A stretch of DNA of 59,716 nucleotides, taken from contig JAJEAL010000126.1 in the NCBI GenBank assembly GCA_022822785.1, positions 1 to 59,716 of the forward strand, written 5' to 3'. The notes below the pieces were generated by a model. It was not told where the DNA came from. It did no database searches and saw only the letters and a list, made by a program, of their open reading frames with translations. The first letter of the stretch is position 1. Each line of letters begins with the position of its first letter. A program made the position numbers and the translations under genes. Origin of the DNA: Candidatus Poribacteria bacterium (lineage in GTDB: Bacteria > Poribacteria > WGA-4E > PCPOR2b). Of this stretch, positions 28,859 through 44,617 are shown piece after piece.

Positions 28859-29503
28859 CTACGAAGTTCGGGGTTGGATCAAAGGAATGGCAACTGCCAA
28901 TTCGCCTTGCAGTGCATCAATCTCTTGACGGAGAAAGGAGAGCAGCCGATGCTTCATTTCGGTCGTTGCGTCTGCTGGTCGCGCTTCAACAGCTTGCCCT
29001 AGTTCCTCTCGCAATTGATGGGCTTCATTAAGTCGGAGATGCTTGTAACTCCGCTCACGCCGGAGTTTTTGCAGCCATGGACGATTAAGGCGTAGCATTG
29101 AAACATGGTATTCACCGCACGGCGTGAGCGGCTGAAGTGATCCCTCGTCAGATTCTACGAAATGTACGCCGCCGTCTTCTTCACTACACGGGTCGGCGAA
29201 GCGATAACCCCGACGACGTTGTTCTCTTGTCGGCCATTTATCGTGCTTTATCATATTGCACGGAATGCAAACCCAATACAGGTTCTTGTAGTCATTCACT
29301 GATCCCCCTCTGCTGCGTGGTTTGAAATGATCAATGCAGAAGGCTTGTGGTCCGCCCATCTGTTGTTCGTGAACACAGCAATAGGCACAACGGTAGGCGA
29401 AATCCCGGCGTAGATAAGGTTCAGCGTTCCGATAACCGACTCGTCCCCGCATCACAGGTGGTGATGCCTGTCGATGGATGCGGGGCGACATGCTCTGCCT
29501 CAC
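28859..29503 (-). CDS. HNH endonuclease-like protein paired with a Phd-like gene
   Basis: The 214-residue protein has an HNH zinc-finger nuclease core: a first Cys pair in RCAYCCVHE, the DHFKPRSRGG catalytic histidine region, the NLYWVCIPCN second pair with Asn, and a following helix with KHDKWP. The C-terminal half is helical and charged. The start is a GTG at 29503 overlapping the stop of the Phd-like gene by 4 bases, so the two are translationally coupled. Such pairs could be a toxin-antitoxin module with a DNA-cutting toxin, or part of the defence island upstream. Both readings are inference. Confidence 0.75.
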   Translation of the reverse strand: MRQSMSPRIHRQASPPVMRGRVGYRNAEPYLRRDFAYRCAYCCVHEQQMGGPQAFCIDHFKPRSRGGSVNDYKNLYWVCIPCNMIKHDKWPTREQRRRGYRFADPCSEEDGGVHFVESDEGSLQPLTPCGEYHVSMLRLNRPWLQKLRRERSYKHLRLNEAHQLREELGQAVEARPADATTEMKHRLLSFLRQEIDALQGELAVAIPLIQPRTS

Positions 29504-29919
29504 ATTGATTCCCTCAATTCACGGAGTTTGGTGATGACCTCTTCAAGCGTCTGCATCCATTTTTTGTCTTGAGCGGCAGCTCGTGACTGGATTGATTGCA
29601 CGAGCGGTTGCACGGCGTCCGCATCGTCAAGTTGTTGGCTTAACTGGGTCAACTCGTTTTCCTCTTGGGGAGTTAAGCCGGATGAGAACTTCTTGTCTAG
29701 CAACGCATGATAAGCCTCAAGCAGGTCAGCGGGGAGTTCGTAGGAAAAAGTGTTTTCATCCTCAGTTGGGTGCCATCTGCGATATTCAGCCATCGGTACG
29801 ACCGCTGCCACGGGCTTCCCATCCTGTTCAAGCACCAAACTCTCATTTCCTTCCCAAATCGTTCGTAGTAGAGTCTCAATCTGAGGCGGAAGTTGATCTA
29901 ATGAAACCGTTTTATTCAC
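29500..29919 (-). CDS. Phd/YefM-like antitoxin-type protein, 139 aa
   Basis: The N-terminal 50 residues (NKTVSLDQLPPQIETLLRTI, then SLVLEQDGKPVAAVVPMAEYRRW) follow the Phd/YefM DNA-binding pattern. The rest is a long acidic helical segment, longer than usual for the family. The start is a GTG at 29919, chosen because AAAGGAGG is 7 bases upstream; the TTG at 29925 is too close. It is coupled to the HNH gene by a 4-base overlap and lies 105 bases after the DUF499 gene. It may neutralise the HNH protein and repress the pair. Confidence 0.7.
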   Translation of the reverse strand: MNKTVSLDQLPPQIETLLRTIWEGNESLVLEQDGKPVAAVVPMAEYRRWHPTEDENTFSYELPADLLEAYHALLDKKFSSGLTPQEENELTQLSQQLDDADAVQPLVQSIQSRAAAQDKKWMQTLEEVITKLRELRESM

Positions 29920-30024
29920 CCTCAAGCCTCCTTTCGCGTTTCCGTACCCCTGCGGGATTTGCGTTAAATATAACAGAATTAAGTAGATATGAAAAGAAAA
30001 AACGTTGGCTTACATCACGTCTTC

Positions 30025-33000
30025 TCAATCAAACTTCAGTTGATCCGTGATCTTGCGGAGTTCCTCATTTATCTGTTCCAAAACCTCATTCGATGGGGGT
30101 TCCCCTTCAACGGTAATCGAAATCCGAAATTTAAAGTCAAGTTCAGGCGCGATTTCAAACAGACTACCGATTGTTTCAGACAAATCCTGAATTTCGATTT
30201 CTGTGAGATTCGATTCGGCGAGGCCCATCCATGATGGCTGCTTTACACGAACTTTGTAAAGATCGTCGGTTAGCGGATCTACCAAAGTAATGATTTCCTG
30301 ATCAACGGCTTTTTGGACAGCATTGTGAAAGACATCATCGGGAATAGATATCCCTTTCTTAACCTCAAGTCGCTCTTTGATCCAACCGAGCGTGATCTGT
30401 CCGGATTCGTCGGGCGGTTGTTGCAATAATTCCACGAGATCTGCTAGATCTATTGTGATCTGCGCTTGTGAAACTTGTAAACCAATCTTATCGGCATCAT
30501 CAATAGTCCAAGGTTGCATGGGACTTCCCTTAGTAATTTCAAAGAGATTATTGGACAAACCGTCGTTGACAGCATCAACAACCAATCTCCACGGAATCGG
30601 TATACCTTTACTTGCAACCAATGCCTCCATCACCTTACCAACAGATGCAGTGCCTTCCTCCCACGCTGCTGGCAGAGTGGTCTGGCTGAGTTCTGCGCCG
30701 CTGACAGGGGCTAGCGGAGGGAATAGCTCTAAATCATCACTGAGTTCCGTGTCAGGAATAATTTCCCCAAGGTAAGCTCTATTTTGCTGGCGCGCCATCA
30801 AGAGACCCGCCTCAACTGCCCCCCTGATTGCACCAAACAGAATCTCGTCGGACGCGAGTTTGGGAATTTCTTCTCCTGCAAAGAATTCCCGAATGGCACC
30901 CACCGTTATGGAAGCATTATCGCCCTGCCACAATTCCGGTAATTGATCCGGATGCAGTAGGTCAGGACTGAGATTATGGAGTGCTGCATACTCAATCGGA
31001 ACGATTTCTAAATCGTTTTTAGCGAAATCTTCGGTGGGTGGTGACTCACGCCAGTATGTGTGCTGAGAGCCGTCTGGACGGACAAAGCGTAACACAATGC
31101 GTCCTTCTGTAACGGCGCGCTGAAGCGTTTCAACGAACACCTTCCGTCCCAACAATCGAGGCAGCCGGGAAACACTAGCAAACATCTCATACAGTCTCTG
31201 GACAGCTTTAGAGGTTTCATCGTTTCCCCACAACTCAAAGAAACTGTCCGGCGTTAGTAGCTCCGGATCTAGCGCAGTTATCAGCAATCTGTCTTCTTCC
31301 GCCAAAAAGGTTTTTACTCTTTCAAAGGAGGATTCTGGGCCTGATGGCAACAGGCGTCCTTTAATTTCTCCCTCCTCGTCGACCGCAACCAAAACGCTAT
31401 ATGTTGATTTGATGGAATCTACGATCCCGATTTCATCATCTCGTTTACGTTGTAGCAGTAAGGCTTTCTGTGTTTCAGTCAAAAGATTCATCTCCTCACC
31501 ACTTTTGATGTTTTCCCAACCGAGAATCTTACGGATTTGATAACGCAATCCTGTCAGTCGTGAGTTCTCGGGCGCGAGTATGATGATGTTGTTACGGTAG
31601 GTTCTATCGAAAAAGGCTTTGAGGGACGTGGGGACATCCACGCCCGGCACTGCGGAGTAATCGGGACCAACAACCACAAAGTGAAGATTAGGGTTGTCGG
31701 AAATATCGGTGGGTGAATCAGGCAAGGCGTGAACAACCACATCATCAGTGTTCTGACCGAGTCTAGTCTCTCTGATTCGTTTCACCAAATCGTCGTTAAT
31801 TCGATCTGTGTTCAATTGTCTCATTGCTCGATCGTGCATGTTGGTGAGATTAGGGGTTGTCCCCAGAGACCAAATATTCCTGTCTTCTTTGAGAAACCAG
31901 GAGACCTTTCGCCATTCGGAAAGTCCTTCCTCCACCGACATCTTGTCGATATTTGGGTGTGCAAGCAGGGGGTAGAGATCCGTCAGATCTGCTTTCTGTC
32001 CAGGGGGTTGTGAGTGCAGAAAAGTGGAAAGCACCGCGACTTCAATTTCTCGATGTTTGAGTCGTGGCAAACGGGTCTGAATATCACGAGCTTTTCTGAG
32101 TTCACCATCAAGAATTGATGTCCACTGATTGCCCTCCTCGCACGCTTCAATCAGTTCACGAACTGCTTCTGAAAGTTCACCATCAATTCCAAGCAACGCA
32201 CTCGGCCCGACAAACGCAGCAGGGTCTTTCCCATCAGACGCTTTCAGGGCGGTTGCAAACATCCGAAGAACTCCACGCGTTCGTTGGAATTTACTGAGTT
32301 GCGTCCATTTCTGATAGAAGACCTCGAGCAAATCTGGATGAAACGGATAAGATTCTAAGAGTCGATCATGCGCGTTCGCCTCCCTATGCAACTCTCGGAG
32401 TGGTAGTGTTTGCATTGCCTTATGAAATCGTTCTACAACGGTACGGCATCTACCATCATCCGTGACAGGTTCAAATAACCGCCTCCGAAGCAATTCCGAA
32501 ATGTCTTCTCGAGACACGGGCTCAACCGTTTCTTCGACACGACGGAAGACACCCTCCATTGCGTTTAAGACTTGAACGCCGGTCGGATCATCCGAGGCAA
32601 TATCAAACGAGATAAGGCTAGCAACGATGGCAGCGTGCCCAACCTTTCCAACTGCCTGTGTGAGCAGTTGGAAAAAGTCCTGAAGGATGCCCAATCGTTT
32701 CGGATCATCGTTAACAGCGTTACGCATATATAAAAGGGCTTCATCAATCAAGAGGAGCGTTGATAATCCTGCCGCTTGCGGTGCTTTTAGAAGTTCAATA
32801 AGGAGGGGTTCAGCGGGGGTAATGTAATCGGCTTCATGCGCAGCGACCTTTGCTAACCCTTCATTTCCTGCTAGTTGATACGCCAACGCGCCCCACGGTG
32901 TTTTGACTTGTTTCTGTCTGCCGTCGGGACCTTCTACCGAAAGCCCCGTTTTCACATCAAATTTATCGAACGGCAGCATGACAACTCTCGCTTGTGGCAA

Positions 33001-33366
33001 GGCGTCCACCCCACTGAAGGCCATAAACTCCTGCACAGTTGGATGGGTTTTCAATTCAACCCCACGTTCTGCCAAATGTAGCAACGCAATCAAGGCGTGG
33101 GTTTTCCCGCCACCGTAAGCGACTTGGACTCGAATTACAGACTTTCCTCCACGCCCTAACAACCGATGCAACACATCTCGCACCAGTGTTTTCAAGTTAT
33201 AGGTAGCGTAGGTGCGATCAAAAAACAGATCGGGTCGGCGATAAACGTTCGGCGCTGCCCCTGTTCGTACTGCGTGGAGATCCGCCGCAAACTCTGCGAG
33301 TGTGAGCGTACCTTGGCGAACATCATCTCTCAATACACAATTTTCATGCCATGCGATTTTTCCCAT
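30025..33366 (-). CDS. DUF499 family defence-associated ATPase
   Basis: The 1113-residue protein is a DUF499 AAA-type ATPase. Walker A is VAYGGGKTHALIAL (GGGKT at 85-89) and Walker B LLLIDEALLY (about 204-209). The middle part contains the conserved region PNLHFVVVGPDYSAVPG; the last 350 residues have two winged-helix-like repeats (GKVMEALVASKGIPIP and LGWIKERLEVKKGISIP). DUF499 proteins regularly occur with DUF1156 methylases and helicases in phage-resistance loci. GGGGG-type ribosome bases precede the ATG. A terminator at 33433-33469 separates it from the methylase transcript, so it probably has its own promoter. Its biochemical role is not established. Confidence 0.88.
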   Translation of the reverse strand: MGKIAWHENCVLRDDVRQGTLTLAEFAADLHAVRTGAAPNVYRRPDLFFDRTYATYNLKTLVRDVLHRLLGRGGKSVIRVQVAYGGGKTHALIALLHLAERGVELKTHPTVQEFMAFSGVDALPQARVVMLPFDKFDVKTGLSVEGPDGRQKQVKTPWGALAYQLAGNEGLAKVAAHEADYITPAEPLLIELLKAPQAAGLSTLLLIDEALLYMRNAVNDDPKRLGILQDFFQLLTQAVGKVGHAAIVASLISFDIASDDPTGVQVLNAMEGVFRRVEETVEPVSREDISELLRRRLFEPVTDDGRCRTVVERFHKAMQTLPLRELHREANAHDRLLESYPFHPDLLEVFYQKWTQLSKFQRTRGVLRMFATALKASDGKDPAAFVGPSALLGIDGELSEAVRELIEACEEGNQWTSILDGELRKARDIQTRLPRLKHREIEVAVLSTFLHSQPPGQKADLTDLYPLLAHPNIDKMSVEEGLSEWRKVSWFLKEDRNIWSLGTTPNLTNMHDRAMRQLNTDRINDDLVKRIRETRLGQNTDDVVVHALPDSPTDISDNPNLHFVVVGPDYSAVPGVDVPTSLKAFFDRTYRNNIIILAPENSRLTGLRYQIRKILGWENIKSGEEMNLLTETQKALLLQRKRDDEIGIVDSIKSTYSVLVAVDEEGEIKGRLLPSGPESSFERVKTFLAEEDRLLITALDPELLTPDSFFELWGNDETSKAVQRLYEMFASVSRLPRLLGRKVFVETLQRAVTEGRIVLRFVRPDGSQHTYWRESPPTEDFAKNDLEIVPIEYAALHNLSPDLLHPDQLPELWQGDNASITVGAIREFFAGEEIPKLASDEILFGAIRGAVEAGLLMARQQNRAYLGEIIPDTELSDDLELFPPLAPVSGAELSQTTLPAAWEEGTASVGKVMEALVASKGIPIPWRLVVDAVNDGLSNNLFEITKGSPMQPWTIDDADKIGLQVSQAQITIDLADLVELLQQPPDESGQITLGWIKERLEVKKGISIPDDVFHNAVQKAVDQEIITLVDPLTDDLYKVRVKQPSWMGLAESNLTEIEIQDLSETIGSLFEIAPELDFKFRISITVEGEPPSNEVLEQINEELRKITDQLKFD

Positions 33367-33432
33367 GTGTTACCCCCTCTTCCAAATCTTTAGGAATCTA
33401 TGCAATGATAGGATTGCGCGATGGGATGTGAA

Positions 33433-33469
33433 GAAAAAAATGTACGGATAGGTCTTGTACCTACCCGTA
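33433..33469 (-). terminator. Rho-independent terminator after the methylase-MNT transcript
   Basis: On the minus strand TACGGGTAGGT and ACCTATCCGTA form an 11-bp stem with one G-U pair around ACAAG, followed by CATTTTTTT. It lies between the MNT gene and the DUF499 gene. Confidence 0.85.
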
Positions 33470-33509
33470 ACTTCCAGTATTATCCCTTCCTTCCATCCTT
33501 GTTGGTTTC

Positions 33510-33797
33510 TCATAGGTTGATCATTTCGTTTAAGACAGAGGTGCGAAGTTCCTCGCGGAGTGAACGACGCGACACCAAATCAACCTGACAGCCCAGTTTT
33601 TCCTCCAAAAATTGTTGGAGGTTGACAAGATCAAACAGATTAGCCTCCTCATCGAAATCCACCAAGAGATCCAAATCGCTGGCCGCGTGAAAATCGCCCC
33701 GCGCATACGAATCGAAGATGCCTGTTATCTCTGCCCTGTATCTATTGTGAATTTCGCCCTTTTCTGCTGCAATTGTGCGTTGAATCTCCGCAATCAT
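33510..33797 (-). CDS. MNT-type minimal nucleotidyltransferase with altered motif
   Basis: The 95-residue protein matches MNT nucleotidyltransferases: EITGIFDSYARGDFHAASDL, then DLDLLVDF with the two metal aspartates, and a C-terminal VDLVSRRSLREEL. In MntA-type antitoxins the motif is G-S-x-A-R-G; here the glycine before Ser30 is Asp, which may weaken nucleotide binding. MntA normally AMPylates a HEPN toxin, but no HEPN gene is adjacent. The gene overlaps the DUF1156 methylase stop by 4 bases and ends before a terminator, so it is in the methylase transcript. Confidence 0.85.
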   Translation of the reverse strand: MIAEIQRTIAAEKGEIHNRYRAEITGIFDSYARGDFHAASDLDLLVDFDEEANLFDLVNLQQFLEEKLGCQVDLVSRRSLREELRTSVLNEMINL

Positions 33798-36712
33798 GAC
33801 GAAATATCTTCAAATTTAAAGGTGAGTTGCTGCTCGACTACTTTTGTGGATTGTCCCGAGCCGCCTGTGCTTACCAATTGCCCCGGTTCGTAATTGATGA
33901 GTGTCTCCAGAAGAGATCTTTCATCAGAGCTTTGGGGACTCGTTTCGATGAGGGCTTGGATGACAGACTTGAAAAGGTCGTTTTCGTGAAGCCCATGCTC
34001 GGCAAGGTAGGTATTGATTTCTATTTTATCACCGGCATCCCACAGATTCATAATTCTGTGGAGCATATCTATCATAGGAAGTTCCCCAGACCCGTGGGCT
34101 TGTCCCACCCGATCCGAACGCCGATCGGTGTGTTCCAACAGGCGGAGTGCATTACCCGACGCAGCGTTTTTCAAAATTCCAATTCGAGCCGCCTTCAAAT
34201 CATCAAGTGATAATCCATATCCCCCCGCTAATAGAATGCACTCCCCTACCGGCGCATCCCTCTTACCGAAGTGGTTCCTGTGCATTAGGTAGTAGCGTGT
34301 CCATTCATCAACTGCTTCCGTGCTTCCACCGTGCAGAATTTGCCCCAATGCAAAGTCACTCACGATGCGCCGTACCTCTGTGAGAAATTCTACTACTGTA
34401 AACGCTTGACCATCCATACGTCGAACCTCCTTGTAGCTGGAGTAGCTTTCCAGCGCAGGTCCAATCGCCGCCCAAACGAAATCCGGTCCTTGAATCCCCG
34501 CGTCCCAAAAGTAGCGCAGTCGTTCAGTAATCCGTTCCTGCATTTCTTGCTTAACTTTACTGTAATGTCCTGTCCTTGCATTTGTGGGACGCTTTCGGCA
34601 GACGAGCCAGAGGGAGGTTGCAAGTGATGCAACTTGACTTCTAAGTCCACCTTGCATTTCTGTATCAATTGGCCATGACGCTGTAACGACAAGACCTGCA
34701 CTTATCATCGCTGTTGTCAGGGTTTCCCACGCAGCTGGGTCTTTGTGAGCGAACACTATCACCATTCTTCCATCGTCACACAATGAATTGTGCGAAACTT
34801 GGAAACTCTCCACCATACCATTTTCGTAGAATTGCTTACCAATGCGTCCTTTCTCACCTGTTTTGTGTTGCTGAACTAATTCCTCGGATTTAGGTGTTAA
34901 TCGATCATTGAACTTCGATTGGAATTGGTCGCCAATTGATCGACGAAGCCACACGTAGAAAAAATCGGCCAAATCGGAATAGGGAATTGCGTCATAATAA
35001 GGTGGGTCAGTAATGATTCCGTCAATTACTTGATTGACTAGTTTGCAGCTTGACTGCTGATTAATAGAAGGTACAGAAGTCAATTTTGCTGATAGTACAT
35101 TTTCCAAAAAACGCACGACCCAACCAATTTGAGGGAGATAACCACCTGTCATCTTGGAGAAAGGATTAAGTTCTGCAAAATCCCAAGTTATTGGTAATGC
35201 AAACCTCACGTAGGTCTGTGCCATTGTTTCTCTGCCATTCTGCCACCAACAGATTGTCGAATTATAACTAGCAAGTCGATCAATGTTAATTGCCAAATAC
35301 GCCTCAATCGCCTCTACCCACTCTGCTGAATAGCCAAGTATTTCCATTTCTGTTCTCGCCATCCGCGTCCACTTCACACATATCATTAATGTCAACAACT
35401 GCCGGGTTGTAAACAGATCTGACCAAGTTTTGAATCCATAATCGGGCAGTTGAGAACCAACAGCTCGATGCCGTTCTTTATTTGGCAATGGTTCATCAGG
35501 GATTCCGTGCGGAATTTTATCGTCAATTGCCTCCATCATTTCTTTTGATACCTTTGCTGCGTCAATCTCTGTTTGTGTGGGTGGACGATACTCTCGGCCA
35601 TATTCCTCCTGATAAACGACTGCCGTCATCTGTGACCTCAATTTGCCCTCATGTCCGCACCGCTTAATATAGTCGCTCGGTTGCTGTGAGCCGCAAAACG
35701 GACAGTTCGCTGTTGCGCCAGACATCGTAGGTTTGCCAACCTCCTGTGTTTCTTTTGGCACAAAAATCTCAAACCGGACGCACTTCGCCTTGAAATCGAG
35801 GCAGAGTTTAAGTGCACGTTTTCCATTGATGATGACTTTGGTTTGCCTTTTTGTCTCTTTGAGTCGGAGAAAATCAGGACGGTTTCGATTTTCAGGGATA
35901 TCCGGAAGAGTTTTTTCAGCTTTCTGACAAACCCATAAGGTCTTGAGCAACGGAATCGTTCCACCACATCTCGGATCTTGACACGGAATCGTTCTCGCCC
36001 AGAGGTAGGCAACCGTTGGCTTCTCATCAATCACCGGGTAGTATGATGCAAGATCACAACGAGCATTCTCCAACACCCACTGTCCCCACAAGCGGACATG
36101 GCTAGCGAGATCGCCCTTTTTTAAGTCGAGACTTTCATCAAGATTGAGACTGGGCAGCTTATGGATTTTTCCTGTGAAACGTTGCGGATATTCAAGTGTG
36201 CATTTGAGAAGGAACCACGCCACCGGGTTATAGTCGTTTGCTATTACCTCGCAGCCGAGCCGCATTGCCTCAAGCGGTATTGCACCACCGCCTGCAAACA
36301 TATCCATTACCTTTGGTGGACGTCCATTGTATGCCATCTGGATGAGTTCTCTAGCGATGTGCAGCTTATTCACCCACCGTCCCTTTCGGTCTTTCTCGGT
36401 CCAATTGCCCTTCCCCTTTTCATCACCCCACCGTGTCAGCGAAGCAATGAGTTCATTACAGAGATATTCACGCTGTTTGTCGGGCAATGGCGATCCAGAA
36501 AGGCGTGTATATTCCGCTTTTATCGTTTCAGGAGCATCGGCGGGATCGGGCAGCAGTGTCGCTATCGTTACGGCGCGGCAAGCGGCGAGGGGGCGGCGTG
36601 CGGGCCAGATGTGAAGCGTGGAGATATGTCCGTGGCGTACATTCTTTTCGTGTTTTGAGTCTGCGGAAACCTTTTGCAATGGAAAGGCTTCCTCGATAAG
36701 TCTACGTGGCAT
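33794..36712 (-). CDS. DUF1156 family DNA methylase
   Basis: The 972-residue protein opens with the DUF1156 region (EAFPLQKVSADSKHEKNVRHGHISTLHIWPARRPL). It has SAM motif I DMFAGGGAIPLEA (137-149), a Cys-rich insert (CQDPRCGG, CPFCGSQ and RCGHEG) probably binding zinc, and the catalytic TDPPYYDAIPYSD (DPPY 569-572), as in N6-adenine or N4-cytosine methylases. The long segment between the motifs may carry target recognition. It should mark host DNA in a BREX- or DISARM-like manner, with the DUF499 protein and helicase as partners; that role is inferred from known neighbourhoods. AAAAGGAAA precedes the ATG. A repeat element fills the 255 bases upstream. Confidence 0.9.
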   Translation of the reverse strand: MPRRLIEEAFPLQKVSADSKHEKNVRHGHISTLHIWPARRPLAACRAVTIATLLPDPADAPETIKAEYTRLSGSPLPDKQREYLCNELIASLTRWGDEKGKGNWTEKDRKGRWVNKLHIARELIQMAYNGRPPKVMDMFAGGGAIPLEAMRLGCEVIANDYNPVAWFLLKCTLEYPQRFTGKIHKLPSLNLDESLDLKKGDLASHVRLWGQWVLENARCDLASYYPVIDEKPTVAYLWARTIPCQDPRCGGTIPLLKTLWVCQKAEKTLPDIPENRNRPDFLRLKETKRQTKVIINGKRALKLCLDFKAKCVRFEIFVPKETQEVGKPTMSGATANCPFCGSQQPSDYIKRCGHEGKLRSQMTAVVYQEEYGREYRPPTQTEIDAAKVSKEMMEAIDDKIPHGIPDEPLPNKERHRAVGSQLPDYGFKTWSDLFTTRQLLTLMICVKWTRMARTEMEILGYSAEWVEAIEAYLAINIDRLASYNSTICWWQNGRETMAQTYVRFALPITWDFAELNPFSKMTGGYLPQIGWVVRFLENVLSAKLTSVPSINQQSSCKLVNQVIDGIITDPPYYDAIPYSDLADFFYVWLRRSIGDQFQSKFNDRLTPKSEELVQQHKTGEKGRIGKQFYENGMVESFQVSHNSLCDDGRMVIVFAHKDPAAWETLTTAMISAGLVVTASWPIDTEMQGGLRSQVASLATSLWLVCRKRPTNARTGHYSKVKQEMQERITERLRYFWDAGIQGPDFVWAAIGPALESYSSYKEVRRMDGQAFTVVEFLTEVRRIVSDFALGQILHGGSTEAVDEWTRYYLMHRNHFGKRDAPVGECILLAGGYGLSLDDLKAARIGILKNAASGNALRLLEHTDRRSDRVGQAHGSGELPMIDMLHRIMNLWDAGDKIEINTYLAEHGLHENDLFKSVIQALIETSPQSSDERSLLETLINYEPGQLVSTGGSGQSTKVVEQQLTFKFEDISS

Positions 36713-36765
36713 TTGGGGTTTCCTTTTCTAATCTAAATTTGCGAGGTTTGTCAACCAAAAGTCAT

Positions 36766-36957
36766 TTAGGACTTACGCACTTGAGTAGGGAACGCAGATC
36801 TGCGTTCCCTACGAACCCTTTATGGTGCATCGTCCGTGCCCCCGATAAATCGGGACAAGCGAGACCAGGGTTGGAAATTGTGTCCTACGGTGATGAATCA
36901 CCGAACTACAGGGTGTCGATTGTTCAACTGCTTAGGTCCTAGTTTCTGTAAGTCTGA
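36766..36957. repeat. MITE-like dispersed repeat with a 28-bp palindrome
   Basis: The block begins TTAGGACTTACGCACTTGAG. It contains the perfect palindrome GTAGGGAACGCAGA/TCTGCGTTCCCTAC (36785-36812) and a CCCGATAAATCGGG copy (36841-36854), and ends near CTGTAAGTCTGA, a weak inverse of its start. Related starts and palindromes occur at 39124, 12127 and 26468. It separates the DUF1156 gene from the Septu-like pair. No coding potential is seen. Confidence 0.6.
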
Positions 36958-36967
36958 TTCCATAAAT

Positions 36968-37846
36968 TCAGGGTTCAGGTGAAGGAGAAAGAGCATCAAA
37001 GTAGCGAATCATACCCGCAAATGGTGCCCCTGGTGCCTGCATTCCTTCCATGGCGTTTATGATGAGAATCCGAGTTTCTGGCTCGATCCGACCGTCTGTA
37101 AGTGCCTGCTTGTATAAACGATACCGTTCGTAAGTCATGTATCTATCGTTTCTGAGTGTTTTGCGATTCAAACCGTAGTACTCAATGGAGGCCGCAGCAA
37201 TAGGTTCAACTTCAGGGTTTTCAACATTAACAATGATTTCAACTTGGGCCCTTTCAGGATTAGCGGTGATTTCAACTTCTTTCAGCACATCATCGGCGCG
37301 CCATGCAAAGTATTCAGTGGGATCATCGAAATAAGGGTTAAGCAAGAGTGGGCGTTCCTGTTGATGGAGGCCAATGAAGGCCTCCACACGGTTTTTATTT
37401 AGCGGGTCAGGCGCGATTGTCCCTGCTTTCGCTGCTATATAATCATCTGTTGTATTGCGTCGAATTGTAGGACTCCGCATCTTCCGATTTTGGGTTGGGA
37501 AAGCCTCCTTCTTAAACCTTTGATTACAAAGTTGACAAGACGCAAGATAATTGTCATAGCAATAGGCGAGCCACCAGTAGCTGCTTTTGGGGCGATAATG
37601 ATCAACATCCCCAAAGGCAACAGTCGAAATTGATGCTTCGCAGTAGGCACATTTGCCCCCTGTCTCGGCGAGAAGTTGTTTTTTTGCTGGCTTCCAACGA
37701 TGGCTTTTGAAGGTGTGTTTTCCAATTTGACCGCGCTTGATGCGACGCTGATTGAGCAGCAGTTCCTCTTCAAATACTCTCTTTCTTTCGCCGTAAAAGT
37801 TGCTGTGGATGGCCTGCTTCGTGCGAACCCTTTTTAGGGGTATCAA
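36968..37846 (-). CDS. ptuB: PtuB-like HNH nuclease of a Septu-type pair
   Basis: The 292-residue protein has an HNH core: Cys66/Cys69 in GGKCAYCEAS, His83 in DVDHYRPK, Asn99 in DNYLASC and the second CxxC at 104/107 (CQLCNQRFK). The DVDHYRPKSSYWWLAY spacing is as in TIGR02646 and PtuB nucleases. The start is a TTG at 37846 overlapping the AAA ATPase stop by 4 bases with GGAGGG upstream, so the genes are coupled. ATPase followed by HNH is the layout of Septu (PtuA-PtuB), in which the ATPase controls the nuclease. A retron-type arrangement is unlikely because no reverse transcriptase is near. Confidence 0.8.
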   Translation of the reverse strand: MIPLKRVRTKQAIHSNFYGERKRVFEEELLLNQRRIKRGQIGKHTFKSHRWKPAKKQLLAETGGKCAYCEASISTVAFGDVDHYRPKSSYWWLAYCYDNYLASCQLCNQRFKKEAFPTQNRKMRSPTIRRNTTDDYIAAKAGTIAPDPLNKNRVEAFIGLHQQERPLLLNPYFDDPTEYFAWRADDVLKEVEITANPERAQVEIIVNVENPEVEPIAAASIEYYGLNRKTLRNDRYMTYERYRLYKQALTDGRIEPETRILIINAMEGMQAPGAPFAGMIRYFDALSPSPEP

Positions 37847-39102
37847 GTTCTGCCCTCCTGCAGCTCTCTCTCAATTTTTCGCAGAAGTTCCTCATGTTCT
37901 CCAGAGAGCTCCATACTTGACCTACCGCCAGTCGGAAGGTCCATTAGAGACGTTTTCAGCTGGTCCAGTTCCACACGTTCCTTAGACGACAAATCCGCTT
38001 TGTCCCGGAGGTGGCGATATCGGTTCTTCATATCCTCAACCGCTTTTGACTCGTCGGTATCTAACGCAAACACTGGTGTCATCACGAGTTGATTTAAGAG
38101 GAGTGTTTTCGGATTGCCGGTGAACTGATGGAGTTGTATCTTTCCCGCTTCGCGCGTCAGACAGTGGAGTTCTCCCTCCCCGGCCTGCTGGGCTGTCATA
38201 GGAGAGTGTGTTGTTACAACGAATTGAAAATTCGGAAACAGCTGGTCGAGGCGCGAGAGCAGTTCACGTTGCCGCTTTGGATGGAGATGCAAATCGACTT
38301 CATCAATGAGGAGGAGCCCCCTCGCAGTCAGTGGCTCTTTTAAATCACGAAAATTCTCTGAAACCCGGTACAAAAGGTCACCAATCCAGGTTGACATTGC
38401 CAGATACCCGTCACTGAGGGCGTGTAAGGGCACAATTCCATCTGGAGTTTCAAACAAGAGGTGCCCGCTCTGTTTATCAATCCGGTGAAACTTTATCCCC
38501 GGAAACAGATCACTTAATACCTTTCGGGCAGTCTCCATTCCCGTTCGGTTATCGAAATAATCAAGGTCCATTGCCCATGAATCAAGCGGCATAGCATCCG
38601 CGTCGGGATCAAACAGGGTAGCAACGCTCTGGGCTCTTTTGTTTGTGAATACCGATGTCTTGGTTCGCCGCCCGTTCACCGTACTGAGGCGACGCGACGC
38701 ACCGAAACCGAGAACAAAATAATTTGGGTCTGTCTGGCTTAAAGCGTCATCAAGCCACGCGAGACGCTGTTTGTTTTTTACAATAACATCGGCGCGGGTG
38801 TCTTCGGGTGCAATCTGTAAATGAATCTCCCGTTCTTCCCTTTCCTCGGTAGCCACAACGGCAGAGATTTTACAACCCTGCGTTTTGTACCGAATCCATT
38901 CCGAGGGGTCTCCCAACAGATCGCCTATGGCATCGCTACCGCTAGTCGCTAGCGCGATGGCTTTCAGAAGCGTACTTTTGCCTGCGCCGTTTTCAGCCAG
39001 CAAGAGTGTCCACTTGCGGATGCTGTCCTCCTCGCCCTCAAATGACAAGGCAATGTCAGAAAAACATTTGACGTTCTTCAAGCGAATTGATTTAAGAAAC
39101 AT
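37843..39102 (-). CDS. ptuA: PtuA-like AAA ATPase of a Septu-type pair
   Basis: The 419-residue SMC/ABC-like ATPase has Walker A AENGAGKST (37-44), a signature-like ALSDGYLAM near 230, Walker B LLLIDEVDLHLHP (263-275) and VVTTHSPMTAQQ, the switch histidine. The C-terminal 90 residues are helical and charged. It lacks a Toprim domain, unlike OLD proteins, which fits PtuA. It lies directly before the HNH gene with a 4-base overlap, and GAGAGG precedes the ATG. The pair sits between a SNF2 helicase and a DUF1156 methylase, with similar repeat elements on both sides. Confidence 0.82.
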   Translation of the reverse strand: MFLKSIRLKNVKCFSDIALSFEGEEDSIRKWTLLLAENGAGKSTLLKAIALATSGSDAIGDLLGDPSEWIRYKTQGCKISAVVATEEREEREIHLQIAPEDTRADVIVKNKQRLAWLDDALSQTDPNYFVLGFGASRRLSTVNGRRTKTSVFTNKRAQSVATLFDPDADAMPLDSWAMDLDYFDNRTGMETARKVLSDLFPGIKFHRIDKQSGHLLFETPDGIVPLHALSDGYLAMSTWIGDLLYRVSENFRDLKEPLTARGLLLIDEVDLHLHPKRQRELLSRLDQLFPNFQFVVTTHSPMTAQQAGEGELHCLTREAGKIQLHQFTGNPKTLLLNQLVMTPVFALDTDESKAVEDMKNRYRHLRDKADLSSKERVELDQLKTSLMDLPTGGRSSMELSGEHEELLRKIERELQEGRT

Positions 39103-39123
39103 CTAGACCATCCTCTCATGTTA

Positions 39124-39222
39124 TTAGGGCTTACGCATTTCAGCGCGGGGCAAGTTGCTCTGAATCCCGCCTGTCCCGATTCATCGGGCCTGCCCCGATC
39201 TTATCGGGGGATTTATCGGGGA
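39124..39222. repeat. Dispersed repeat cluster flanking the Septu-like pair
   Basis: It begins TTAGGGCTTACGCATTTCAG, matching 17 of 20 bases of the start at 36766 in the same orientation. It then holds three overlapping CCCGAT...ATCGGG palindromes (39175-39220). It lies between the helicase gene and the PtuA-like gene. Confidence 0.65.
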
Positions 39223-39260
39223 TGCCCCGCCTACAGTTGGCCGCGCAGGTTCTAGTTATG

Positions 39261-42200
39261 TTAGGAGTTTGAATTGAATGCCTCTATATCCGATTCTCTG
39301 ATAATGTCACCGGCGTTAATAATAACACTTCCTTTGGCTTTAGCGATCAGTTTGCCAAACGGATCACGACATCGGTATAACTGTGGGTTAGTGTCACAAT
39401 GATAGACGACATAAAGCCAGTAACGGTCTCGGTGATTGGCAGCTTGCCGCCATTCATTCTCCGTCAATTCAACACTCGCAATTCCGGTGCGCCCTTTGAC
39501 CTCAATGTAACGCACCTCACCGTTTGGGTATCTCGATTCCAAATCAAATCCCTTTTTGAGTTTGGAAACATCTTTGACCGCAGCACCGCGCTCCTGTTCA
39601 TATTCGGTAGCAATGCGGATCGCGATAGCTTCAGCATCTCGCATTGTCCTAATTGGTACCGCATCAACCGGTGGAGATGAGGTCACAAAGGCGCGGGCAT
39701 AGAGGGTTACGGGCCCCAATCGGGTGTTTTCGATTTCTGCAATGAGACTTGCTTCAGCCGCCTCGCGCTTAGTGGATAGTTCATCCAGTTCCCGCTCGCA
39801 GTCCCTTAGTTTTGTTTGCGCTGCGGGAACCCCTCTGGCAACATCCGCTTTGAGTTTGATTCTCTGGTTGAGAAGCTCCCCCCTCCTTGAATTAAATGAA
39901 ACTTGAACCTGTGCCCTCTTAACGTCCAATTGGGATTGAAGTTCATCGCGGATGTCCGAAAGTTTGGGCTTTCCAAACTTTTCAATGACAAACTTTTCAA
40001 CGGGTTGCACCTCTTCAGCGAGATCAACCCATTCAGAGGAGATTGGTGGAGGGTTGTCCGGTGGCGACGTTAATGTCAACAACAGATGGGGTGGTGTCCG
40101 TTCACAACGACCGTCTGAAAATTGTTTGACCCCAACGAGCTCTTCGTCCAAGATTTGAGATTTTTCACCAATTTGTCGCATCACAGGCACCTTTGCCAAA
40201 TAGAACAGATACGGCTCATCTGTCTGAGGGTCGAAATAAACCGCCCCGCGATTCCCTTCATCTTCAAATTCTCCCAAAAACAGGTTCAAAATTGAATCAA
40301 AAACGGGCTCACCGGGATGCAGATAGACCGCCTGCGGTTGATCGATCCCAGCGGGCAGTGCAAGCTCTCGTGAGAACGTCAATCGGTCTTGCAAATGCAG
40401 GGGATATTTTTCAATAACACTTCGCGCAAGCGGCGGACAGTGAGATAATTTGAAAATTTCCTCAACCTCACCATCAATTCGATAGCCGATTAGCAGGGCA
40501 ACATCTTCAAAGAAACCTCGCACATACGCCGGCATCACGCGAAGCGTTTCGGCGGATTCTCGCTGCTGCTGAACGCCGACGAGCAGCCGTTTAACTTCGC
40601 TGCACGTTACCAACTCCTGCTGTGCTTCAAGTTGTCCTTTGATGTTTTCCGAGGTGAACCGGTTATTGATGGTTTGGATTGAGGCATCGGTTTTATTCTC
40701 CGTGATGGCTTGGGTAATCAGGTCCGTCAAAGAGATCTCGCTGAATTGTTGACCGATGACATCAAACACCTTATCGTCGCTCAGTTCTTCACGCATCTGT
40801 TCCAACTTCTCTAACAGCACCTTCAATACCCGTCCTTCACGCGTGTCTTGGGCGACGAGGTTCAGCAAAACCACCGTCCGTTTCTGCTTGTATCGGTGAA
40901 TCCGTCCCATCCGTTGTTCAAGCCGGGCGGGGTTCCACGGGATATCGTAGTTGACCATCAGCCAACAGAACTGAAGGTTGATCCCCTCCCCGGCTGCGTC
41001 GGTTGCAACTAGATACTGCGCCCCGTTCGGGGCACGGAAAAACTCTACCTGTTTCTCGCGTTCATTGTATCTCATGCCACCGTGGATTTGGGCGACTTTC
41101 CCGGCAAAACCCTTCGCCTCCAATCGTGCAGTGACAAAATCTAGCGTGTCGCGATGCTCGGTAAAGATAAGTACCTTTGTATCTGGATAACCTTCTAACG
41201 CCTCCCACAGTTTCTCAAACTTACTTTCAGCTCTCTGGTTGTAGACCGCCCTTGCCAACTCGGTTAGGTCCTGAACTTGACGGATCTCTGCCTCTAGCTC
41301 CGCAATCGATCGGCTGGTTGTTGCCTCGGCAAGGCTTTCATCAGCGTGTTCCGCCTCCTCCTGACCATCAATAATCTCTTCCTCATCGCCCGTTTTTGTA
41401 TCCCTGATGTCGATGTCTTTAAGTTTTGCTTGCGCCGTTTCCAGTCTCTCCAATGATAACCGCCCCTCGCGAAGTTCACGGAGGGTTATCCGAAGTTTTT
41501 CCTCCCGTCTGATAAGGCTCCGCCACAGTGCGAAAGTTGAACTGGCAAGCCGCCGTTGTAGTACCATCATCGCTAACCGTGCCGCGGTCTGATTGTACTG
41601 TCCGGCGAGGTCGAAATGGTTCTCACAATACGTTGTGACCTCATCGTATAACGATTGCTCACTAATCTCCCCCTGTTTGAGTGGATAAGCAATGGTTCGA
41701 CTCAGACGTGGCGGGTAAATCGGTGTTTCATCAAAGGCGATCATCTCCTCCTTCATCCGCCGGAGTAGATGATCTGACCTCGTTCCTTCAAGCAAACGGT
41801 CAAATGCTCCTTGTGCGGCGAGTCTGTCGGGCAAAAGCAGTCTCCACAGAAAATAGTACGCATCATTTCTGCCCATGTGTGGCGTTGCTGTGAGCAACAA
41901 TAGGCTATTTCCCTCCGCGGCAATCCGTTCTGCAAGCTGGTATCGTTTCGATTTCGTCACTGTCCCGTCCCACTCATATCGTGCCGATAGCTTATGGGCT
42001 TCATCAAAGACGACCAGATCATACGACGGGGCTTCAAAGAGATATTCCTGCATCCGTTCCTGCCGCAACGTATCGAGACTCACAATCGCCAAGTTATTTT
42101 CCGGATCGACAAAGGGATTGCCGGCTGCAGCATCGGCACTGGACAGAATCCGAAATTGGAGACGAAAACAGACACGCAGTTCACGTTCCCAGTTTCCAAT

Positions 42201-42695
42201 CAGTCCCGCTGGTGGCACAATCAGTACCCGCTCTACCTGTCGTCGCAGTAGCAATTCTTGGATATAAAGCCCTGTCATGATCGTTTTTCCGGCACCGGCA
42301 TCGTCCGCCAACAGAAACCGTAACGGGAAATGTTTCAGCAGATGGTCATATACCGCGATGAACTGATGCGGAAGCGGATCGATCAGCGATGTCTCTGTGG
42401 CAAAGATGGGATTGAACAGATAGGCGTGTTGAAGTCGATACGCTTCAGCGACCAATCGCACCAGATTTGCATCCGCTCGAAAAGGAGGGTATACAATCTC
42501 GAAACGCCTTTGTAGCTCTTCGGTGGAACAGATAAATGGCTCCGCGTCACCCTGAAAAAAGAGTTGGACAAACGAATCGTGGTATTCAACCCGACGGATA
42601 ACCTTTTCCCTGCCTTGAAACTTGTCGATCAGGTATGTGCCGGGTTGGAGGGCGTTGATATGGATTGTATGTGTTTGATTCGGTACGGGATTCAT
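39261..42695 (-). CDS. SNF2-type helicase with C-terminal DUF3883 (defence-associated)
   Basis: The 1144-residue protein has Walker A DDAGAGKT (131-138), DEAH (231-234), LLLTATPHMG, then the second domain with VLIFTEHRDTLDFV, ATDAAGEGINLQF and QRMGRIHRYKQ. It ends in a DUF3883 domain, GFDLESRYPNGEVRYIEVKG, whose EVKG resembles a PD-(D/E)xK-fold core. Such helicases accompany DUF1156 and DUF499 proteins and the DISARM helicase DrmD, so it is the probable motor of the same system. A coiled coil lies near 900-960. No clear ribosome site is seen before the ATG. The Septu-like pair now separates it from the methylase. Confidence 0.9.
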   Translation of the reverse strand: MNPVPNQTHTIHINALQPGTYLIDKFQGREKVIRRVEYHDSFVQLFFQGDAEPFICSTEELQRRFEIVYPPFRADANLVRLVAEAYRLQHAYLFNPIFATETSLIDPLPHQFIAVYDHLLKHFPLRFLLADDAGAGKTIMTGLYIQELLLRRQVERVLIVPPAGLIGNWERELRVCFRLQFRILSSADAAAGNPFVDPENNLAIVSLDTLRQERMQEYLFEAPSYDLVVFDEAHKLSARYEWDGTVTKSKRYQLAERIAAEGNSLLLLTATPHMGRNDAYYFLWRLLLPDRLAAQGAFDRLLEGTRSDHLLRRMKEEMIAFDETPIYPPRLSRTIAYPLKQGEISEQSLYDEVTTYCENHFDLAGQYNQTAARLAMMVLQRRLASSTFALWRSLIRREEKLRITLRELREGRLSLERLETAQAKLKDIDIRDTKTGDEEEIIDGQEEAEHADESLAEATTSRSIAELEAEIRQVQDLTELARAVYNQRAESKFEKLWEALEGYPDTKVLIFTEHRDTLDFVTARLEAKGFAGKVAQIHGGMRYNEREKQVEFFRAPNGAQYLVATDAAGEGINLQFCWLMVNYDIPWNPARLEQRMGRIHRYKQKRTVVLLNLVAQDTREGRVLKVLLEKLEQMREELSDDKVFDVIGQQFSEISLTDLITQAITENKTDASIQTINNRFTSENIKGQLEAQQELVTCSEVKRLLVGVQQQRESAETLRVMPAYVRGFFEDVALLIGYRIDGEVEEIFKLSHCPPLARSVIEKYPLHLQDRLTFSRELALPAGIDQPQAVYLHPGEPVFDSILNLFLGEFEDEGNRGAVYFDPQTDEPYLFYLAKVPVMRQIGEKSQILDEELVGVKQFSDGRCERTPPHLLLTLTSPPDNPPPISSEWVDLAEEVQPVEKFVIEKFGKPKLSDIRDELQSQLDVKRAQVQVSFNSRRGELLNQRIKLKADVARGVPAAQTKLRDCERELDELSTKREAAEASLIAEIENTRLGPVTLYARAFVTSSPPVDAVPIRTMRDAEAIAIRIATEYEQERGAAVKDVSKLKKGFDLESRYPNGEVRYIEVKGRTGIASVELTENEWRQAANHRDRYWLYVVYHCDTNPQLYRCRDPFGKLIAKAKGSVIINAGDIIRESDIEAFNSNS

Positions 42696-42759: not shown

Positions 42760-43370
42760 TTATCCTGAACCACTTGCTTTTCGCAATTCGTCGAGAAGGC
42801 AAACGATGTCCCGGTAACACTTATCGAACGAATCTGCTTGACGCGCTTGGTCAAGGTCAAAGCGGGCTGTGAGTTTGGGTTGATCAATCGTTTCACGATA
42901 CGTTTCACCGCTTTCCAGCTGCCGTCTCAGCCATCCCTTTGCACCGCGAATCCCTTCCGGGTTGTCCGGCGGTAGAAAATCATCTCTTAACCCTCTTTGT
43001 CCTTGCAGTGACTCAGCTGCTGCAAGAAACCATGCCTCAAATTCGTGTTTTGCCAAGACTACGGCAATTGGTAGGTCGCTACGAGCTTGTCGCGCGCGAC
43101 AAAGTAGTTTTGGCCCAGTTGCGCCGGGCAGTCATCATCGCTGTCGAGAAGGACAAATATGGCGCCTCGTCCACGAATCTTTCGAGCTAAGTATTCAACC
43201 ACTCGTTCAAGTTCATCCTCCTGAATAACTTTGCTTCTGGAAACGCGGATAAGGGGCAGCTTGCCAATCGGCAATTCTGGATAAAGACTCGTAGCAACGC
43301 GTCGAATCAGGATTGGCACAGCTTCCTCTTCGCCCTTTCCTTCGACGATGCAACCGATTTGGATTGTCAT
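42760..43370 (-). pseudogene. DUF4276 (Toprim-like) protein gene split by a frameshift
   Basis: The first part (43370-43059, 103 codons) has the DUF4276 start IGCIVEGKGEEEAVPILIRR and the VLLDSDDDCPAQLG acidic motif of Toprim-like nucleases. The second part reads RSDLPIAVVLAKHEFEAWFL in another frame and ends at 42760. In intact family members these parts are joined, so one base has been lost or gained near 43085. The upstream neighbour is an AAA ATPase (43436-44617), its usual partner. The nuclease is therefore probably inactive, unless the shift is a sequencing error or is rescued by frameshifting. Confidence 0.85.
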
Positions 43371-43435: not shown

Positions 43436-44617
43436 TTATTTTTCTTCTTCAGCGTCGACAGATGCTAGGTTGGGTTGCAATTGATTGATGCGTAGGAGTT
43501 CACCAGTTGTATACAACCGATCGCGCACTACAGACTTGCTTGCTTCATCCACACCGGCGATTACCGTGATACCGTTGTGTGCTTCGACGGCGAGAATTGA
43601 TTCAGGATCAAACTCCTTGTCATCAAGGAGGTCTGGACTGTGGGTGATGATGATAATCTGCGTTGTGTCGGCAGCGTCCCTAAGTGCGTCAAGTAACACA
43701 CCTGCCGCTGCTGGGTGAAGTACGCTCTCCGGTTCTTCGATTCCGACAAGCAGCACATACCTTTTTGGGTCGCGGTGTTCTTGAAACAGTGCGACAAGAA
43801 TCCCCAAGGCGCGGAGGGTGCCATCGGACATATTGTTTGCGAGAAATCGCTGTGGTCCCTCTGCTTTTGCAGCATTTTGCGTGAATACTAACCCTTCCTT
43901 AGGTCCATACTTTCTAGCTTCTATCTTATCCACGTTGGGGACAATCGCCGCTAGATATTCCTTAATGCGTCCTTTCACGGACGGTGAAAGTTGCTTAAAA
44001 ACGCTTGTAAGATTGCTTCCATCACGAGTAAGCAGATCGCCCGGATCGGGTGCTTGGAGATCCTTGATTTTATCAAGGTTGAGACTATAAAATCCCATCT
44101 GGGAAAATGCCTCATAAACAGAGCGAAATTCGTTCAGTCCGGAAGCGTTGACTAAATACAGGCGATCCGTCGCGGCAGCCGGTGCCACCTCCATATTCGT
44201 TTTGGTTACAGTGCCATTTTTAACATAGAAGTAATCTTCTTGAGTGGGCTGCTGTGTGCTCCGAAGTACACACTCTTCCCTTTGAACTTTGTACCTGCCA
44301 CGCGAAAAGTCACCGATACGAAAAGCGTAGTGTCCGGTGGAGCCTTCGGGCAAAGTGAAATCGAGGCGAATACTGAAATGCTTTGGACGGCCGCCAGAAC
44401 GGCAGTGGATATCGTCAGTTCCTCCTCGATTACGTATAGCATGGTCGAGCGATAAATTCAACGCATCGGCGACAAATCGCAGAGAATCGAGAAAATTGCT
44501 CTTGCCCGCGCCGTTGGGTCCGACGAGAAACGTCAATGGTCGCAGCTCCACATCGCACGCAGCGATACTCTTATAGTTTTTCAGGGCAACTCTTGTGATA
44601 AACGCTGAATTTTTCAT
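43436..44617 (-). CDS. OLD-like AAA ATPase partnered with DUF4276
   Basis: The 393-residue ABC-type ATPase has Walker A VGPNGAGKSNFLDSLRF (33-40 core), signature-like NNMSDGTLRALGIL, Walker B LLVGIEEPESVLHP and the switch histidine in IIIITHSPDLLDD. With a DUF4276 Toprim-like gene next to it, it forms a two-gene version of the OLD/PARIS theme (ATPase sensor plus Toprim nuclease), a common phage-defence layout. The gene is intact while its partner is frameshifted. It is the outermost gene of the defence island and shares its strand. Confidence 0.85.
   Translation of the reverse strand: MKNSAFITRVALKNYKSIAACDVELRPLTFLVGPNGAGKSNFLDSLRFVADALNLSLDHAIRNRGGTDDIHCRSGGRPKHFSIRLDFTLPEGSTGHYAFRIGDFSRGRYKVQREECVLRSTQQPTQEDYFYVKNGTVTKTNMEVAPAAATDRLYLVNASGLNEFRSVYEAFSQMGFYSLNLDKIKDLQAPDPGDLLTRDGSNLTSVFKQLSPSVKGRIKEYLAAIVPNVDKIEARKYGPKEGLVFTQNAAKAEGPQRFLANNMSDGTLRALGILVALFQEHRDPKRYVLLVGIEEPESVLHPAAAGVLLDALRDAADTTQIIIITHSPDLLDDKEFDPESILAVEAHNGITVIAGVDEASKSVVRDRLYTTGELLRINQLQPNLASVDAEEEK

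Follow-up and report, generated by a model that had tools for sequence, protein, structure and literature searches.

Does a locus that combines a DUF1156 methylase, a DUF499 ATPase, an SNF2-DUF3883 helicase and a minimal nucleotidyltransferase (MNT) represent a distinct, incompletely described defense system, or does it belong to a system that already has a name? The question is raised by positions 30025-42695 of a 59,716-nucleotide stretch of a Candidatus Poribacteria contig (JAJEAL010000126.1, assembly GCA_022822785.1), the whole of which is hereafter called the window. A first-pass annotation had read these genes as a BREX/DISARM-like set whose expected companions (DUF3780, PLD nuclease, PglZ, DrmA/B) were not in view. 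The four proteins it named are real, lie where it placed them and are all encoded on the minus strand, as confirmed by Pfam matches; it overlooked a PtuA-PtuB pair inside the interval, a HEC-01 pair upstream and a Phd-HNH pair downstream. In the order of transcription on the minus strand (44617 to 28859), the genes are HEC-01A, HEC-01B (split), HmaA, PtuA, PtuB, HmaB, MNT, HmaC, Phd and HNH. The locus is a known type of anti-virus cluster, i.e., Hma (Type-1 BREX-related), with an inserted Septu system and a small leftover nucleotidyltransferase. We consider that a three-gene, restriction-modification-like Hma system with interchangeable junction cargo, a separate Septu and a remnant MNT explains it best (with a probability of roughly 85%), and that the locus is otherwise largely ordinary, the exception being the hints it holds on how such clusters exchange inserted parts.

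Hma was defined in 2021 with PADLOC (Payne et al.) as three genes, a helicase, a methylase and an ATPase, often accompanied by Septu type I (PMC8565338), the association that led to its discovery. The same systems were redescribed in 2026 by Rakesh and Krishnan as Type-1 BREX-Related (BR), in which a DUF499 ATPase and a DUF1156 methylase are joined by an Snf2 helicase whose C-terminal PD-(D/E)XK nuclease is active (PMC12839542). A 2013 survey had already found HEPN-DUF499 proteins to share a restriction-modification operon with SNF2-DUF3883 and had described DUF3883 as a new REase domain (PMC3710099). In the window, the SNF2-DUF3883, DUF1156 and DUF499 proteins match HmaA, HmaB and HmaC at 655, 419 and 346 bits, in each case the best PADLOC profile, and the three genes stand in one locus in the order A-B-C, all on the minus strand, an order that related loci share. 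Profile searches revealed no PglZ, DUF3780, PLD/HKD nuclease or DrmB among the genes of the locus and its surroundings that were scanned, as had been noted at first pass. However, neither Hma (PMC8565338) nor Type-1 BR (PMC12839542) needs PglZ, DUF3780, PLD or DrmA/B, so these companions are not to be expected, the nuclease being part of the helicase protein, and the description of the set as incomplete does not hold: as Hma or Type-1 BR, all three genes are there. The window lacks both PglZ, the mark of Type 3, and DUF3780 or an HKD nuclease, the marks of Type 2, among the genes scanned, and resembles Type-1 BR in its BrxC-related DUF499 AAA+ protein, its DUF1156 methylase and its RapA-like Snf2 protein with a predicted C-terminal PD-(D/E)XK domain.

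What remains of the BREX/DISARM comparison is a kinship. The AlphaFold model of HmaC (mean pLDDT 85.4) finds its best PDB fold match in BrxC (9zdx, E 3e-6), followed by ORC/Cdc6, that of HmaA (mean pLDDT 83.5) matches RapA, and both the DrmD and the BrxH profile score on the helicase, all of which could favor a distinct, uncharacterised system in which methylase, DUF499 protein, MNT and helicase act together. Yet the Hma profile is the best one for each core gene by wide margins (on the helicase, HmaA scores 655 bits, DrmD, the next best, 361 and DrmA 217), gene content and order match the published three-gene system, and the MNT is not conserved across related loci, making such a system highly improbable. 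The window also differs from BREX in the absence of PglZ from the genes scanned, and from DISARM in that HmaA outscores DrmD and DrmA on the helicase and no DrmB or DrmC profile is among the matches listed. The match to a characterised system is thus one of core profiles and order, while the window has, beyond what is published for Hma, flanking HEC-01 and Phd-HNH pairs and an MNT between HmaB and HmaC. The first-pass observations were mostly right though incomplete, and their interpretation is out of date.

HmaA (39261..42695, minus strand) is a Swi2/Snf2 helicase with a C-terminal PD-(D/E)XK nuclease domain (NOV_C/DUF3883), an identification based on PADLOC, Pfam (Helicase_C, 88.6 bits; NOV_C, 77.4 bits), invariant residues and the predicted fold. 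D1051, E1065 and K1067 of the NOV_C domain are, together with the motor residues, invariant in 27 HmaA proteins/loci from several phyla. The nuclease believed to be absent is, as judged from these residues, the DUF3883 domain within the helicase protein itself, and the nuclease domain of a related HmaA is reported to be antiphage, as cited in PMC12839542.

HmaB (33794..36712, minus strand; PADLOC HmaB 419 bits, PF06634 72.6 bits) is a DUF1156 DNA methyltransferase in which the motifs FAGGG and TDPPYYD (DPPY) are invariant in 12 loci, which indicates an amino methyltransferase (N6 or N4); here the DPPY motif of the window departs from the original annotation of Hma, in which the methylase was an m5C enzyme. 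HmaC (30025..33366, minus strand; PADLOC HmaC 346 bits, PF04465 74.6 bits) is a BrxC-like DUF499 AAA+ ATPase, both of its Walker motifs, A (G85-K88) and B (D208-E209), being unchanged across 28 loci; its last 60 residues, where the C-terminal RRM of Type-1 BR would be expected, are modeled as helices with moderate confidence. Unlike about half of Type-1 BR systems, its DUF499 protein carries no N-terminal HEPN domain. We considered the MNT as the antitoxin of an in-frame HEPN on DUF499 and discarded this option, as HmaC begins directly at the AAA+ region. In other poribacterial loci (L059-L063, L065 and L066) HmaC has an N-terminal extension of ca. 155 residues, and no MNT is found there. The extension in L062 shows a weak Swt1-HEPN match (20.8 bits, below cut-off).

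For the methylation target, the division of labor and the antiphage activity of these proteins we infer the following scheme. HmaB, given its conserved motif, would methylate adenines and so mark self DNA, HmaC may assemble on or scan DNA in the manner suggested by its kinship with BrxC, and HmaA, with a motor and a nuclease whose activity is predicted from conserved motifs, would degrade unmarked invading DNA. As the first-pass annotation remarked, the mechanism of such loci is poorly known, and it is still little tested.

The space between helicase and methylase is filled by a complete Septu type I pair, a PtuA ATPase with an adjacent PtuB HNH nuclease. PtuA (37843..39102, minus strand) lies between HmaA and HmaB, reaches 429 bits with the PADLOC PtuA profile and matches solved PtuA chains, whereas PtuB (36968..37846, minus strand; PADLOC PtuB 117 bits) has low similarity to solved PtuB chains and scores 44 bits against TIGR02646, below the cut-off of that model. 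Just as in Septu type I, ATPase and nuclease genes are adjacent and translationally overlapping (the last 4 bases of PtuA are shared with the start of PtuB); unlike it, the pair is embedded in Hma, and "Septu in Hma" serves as a stock example of one system embedded in another (PMC12255303). PtuA occupies the A-B gap in 14 of the 19 poribacterial loci of the same subfamily with HmaA and HmaB in view. By analogy with its family, Septu would act as an independent backup nuclease module.

Between PtuB and HmaB lies a 255-bp non-coding spacer (36713..36967) made largely of repeats that are dispersed through the genome, among them a 28-base palindrome, with 52 matches in its own genome, itself included. 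We considered this gap as the site of a hidden gene, and found the dispersed repeats instead. In several relatives, cargo genes stand at this position. L078 (9148-9984), L099 (5616-6629) and L086 (6736-7548) have a third cargo gene, located between PtuB (or PtuA) and HmaB; two of the proteins belong to families that match nothing in Pfam or PADLOC, and that of L086 is a DUF3644/PDC-S19 protein.

At the HmaB-HmaC junction lies the solitary MNT (33510..33797, minus strand; PADLOC PDC-S09, NTP_transf_2 41.1 bits). Its translational coupling to the methylase, claimed at first pass, stands, since the MNT start and the HmaB stop overlap by 4 bases (ATGA at 33797-33794); its membership in the system does not, as it is patchy cargo, present in 8 of 19 related loci. 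The gene belongs to the same NTP_transf_2 family as the antitoxin of HepT/MntA type VII toxin-antitoxins, and in relatives this junction carries a HepT-like HEPN, but the window has no HEPN partner and reads DSX10DXD for GSX10DXD, although GS is kept in 15 of 15 aligned relatives. A single base of a draft assembly underlies this change of glycine to aspartate. AMPylation by MntA is lost when GS is replaced with AT, so it requires GSX10DXD (PMC7641770). The window copy is also the most diverged of the junction set, with 57-68% identity where HmaB retains 67-74%. A tblastn search with two HEPN queries found no HEPN beside the MNT in the locus, including between MNT and HmaC. Given that the HEPN is gone and the catalytic motif damaged, the MNT is probably dispensable for defense, and most likely it is a decaying remnant of HEPN-MNT toxin-antitoxin cargo, not a core part of the system.

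Several other origins or partners of this gene were considered and rejected. No HEPN remnant emerged by tblastn between MNT and HmaC, the 143-bp gap that separates them is unique in the genome and hence no repeat, and an orphan HepT elsewhere in the genome could not serve as partner, for both HepT genes have their own MNT. A plasmid search with the window MNT recovered distant family members only. On the HmaB tree, the nearest relative is L081 (81% SH-aLRT), which carries an MNT-HEPN fusion. In this fusion (L081 13021-13782), the active-site His of the HEPN motif RX4HXY is replaced by P, suggesting an inactive toxin half.

The comparison across relatives puts this remnant in context. Among the 19 poribacterial loci of the same subfamily with HmaB and HmaC in view, the HmaB-HmaC junction holds an MNT alone in five (the window, L041, L051, L072 and L073), an MNT fused to HEPN in three (L081, L082 and L099), a HEPN alone in three (L079, L080 and L083; in two of them an MNT precedes HmaA) and neither in eight. 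Cargo is swapped repeatedly: the HmaB tree requires at least six changes for MNT, at least three for HEPN and at least five for Ptu, as expected for exchangeable cargo. In many phyla the genes keep the order A-B-C, yet the spacing of A and B and of B and C ranges from a 4-base overlap to more than 5 kb. One member of the same subfamily (L077, 70% HmaB identity) consists of the bare core alone, its genes being separated by 25 and 61 bp and accompanied by no cargo. MNT and HEPN are found together at the B-C junction in two other Hma types as well, i.e., L047-L049 (Poribacteria, HepT) and L106 (Bryobacteraceae, PF05168 HEPN). The window MNT would then be what remains of the HEPN-MNT cargo seen at this junction in relatives.

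It could also be argued that the MNT is a working regulator independent of HEPN, one that AMPylates HmaB or HmaC or, as a pseudo-enzyme, binds them and so tunes methylation or ATPase activity. The 4-base overlap with HmaB speaks for such a role, all the more as the MNT of L106, in an unrelated Hma type, is coupled to HmaB by the same 4 bases, and as solitary MNTs under purifying selection recur not only between HmaB and HmaC but also upstream of HmaA. Those of L032, L041, L050 and L051 keep GSX10DXD intact at a dN/dS of ca. 0 to 0.14 (ca. 0.2-0.35 for pairs that include the window copy, at a dS near saturation), so a HEPN-independent role is possible in these relatives. However, an MNT is absent from 11 of the 19 B-C junctions of the subfamily and from the bare core, is accompanied by HEPN in L106 and L047-L049, and in the window is the most diverged copy, with its motif glycine lost; for the window we regard regulation as unlikely. 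Equally doubtful, if not more so, is the broader proposal that the HmaB-HmaC junction is reserved for a HEPN-MNT fail-safe able to sense when the Hma complex has failed, and that solitary MNTs have turned into HEPN-independent regulators that AMPylate or scaffold HmaB or HmaC.

The MNT-HmaC gap also contains the hairpin that the first-pass annotation took for a terminator splitting the locus into at least two transcripts. This intrinsic-terminator-like hairpin (33443..33469, minus strand) has an 11-bp stem followed by CATTTTTTTC. The coding strand of this stretch has no second strong terminator, and a site of equal strength arises in 0.05% of shuffles of the 143-bp gap. Terminator-like sites as a class are not enriched here (11 found vs. 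19 expected). The terminator is real as a pattern, and it may put HmaC on its own transcript; a promoter-like site is present at 33432-33405 in the same gap. Searches of the window for tRNA, tmRNA and Rfam families gave no match.

The flanks hold two further modules. Upstream, HEC-01A (43436..44617, minus strand), an OLD/ABC-type ATPase of the PADLOC candidate HEC-01, scores 507 bits and is intact, whereas its partner HEC-01B (DUF4276; 42760..43370, minus strand) is broken by a frameshift near 43059, its two ORFs scoring 95 and 114 bits and matching profile positions 1-91 and 105-193 of a single 197-position model. The window thus resembles the PADLOC embedded candidates HEC-01 and, through its MNT, PDC-S09, and differs from HEC-01 in the frameshift, which is either real decay or an assembly error. 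Just downstream of HmaC (28859..29925, minus strand), genes for a Phd-like antitoxin (29500-29925) and an HNH protein (28859-29503) overlap by 4 bases. In another Hma type, a homologous pair separates HmaB from HmaC (L052 8606-7408 and L055 4362-3290), so Phd-HNH looks like a further Hma-associated module. The frameshifted HEC-01B, the MNT that has neither its motif nor a HEPN, and the repeats in the spacer might be taken as signs that the locus is decaying and that the whole may be inactive; as HmaA, HmaB, HmaC, PtuA and PtuB are all full-length with intact motifs, we find this quite unlikely.

A single HmaB is found in the genome of the window (a 147-contig assembly), the nearest named loci belong to Candidatus Poribacteria, and HmaB is present in 55 of 85 genomes of the phylum. 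Cu/Zn SOD and PhyH genes flank the window copy of Hma, which lies in a different place from many Hma loci of a related poribacterial family (L033-L038, L040-L042, L050, L051, L068 and L069). Whatever their cargo, these are found between aminopeptidase P and HEAT-repeat genes, i.e., in a fixed chromosomal defense hotspot. Close to the defense locus, the window also encodes a 698-residue protein with at least 13 WD40 repeats (49143-51239), in a bacterial genome.

The original lead is thereby closed, as the "missing" parts are not missing and the system already has a published name. What has been gained is a comparative series within one phylum, leading from a bare three-gene Hma core to junctions with MNT-HEPN, HEPN only and MNT only, and this series makes it testable whether embedded toxin-antitoxin modules cooperate with their host defense system or merely ride in it.
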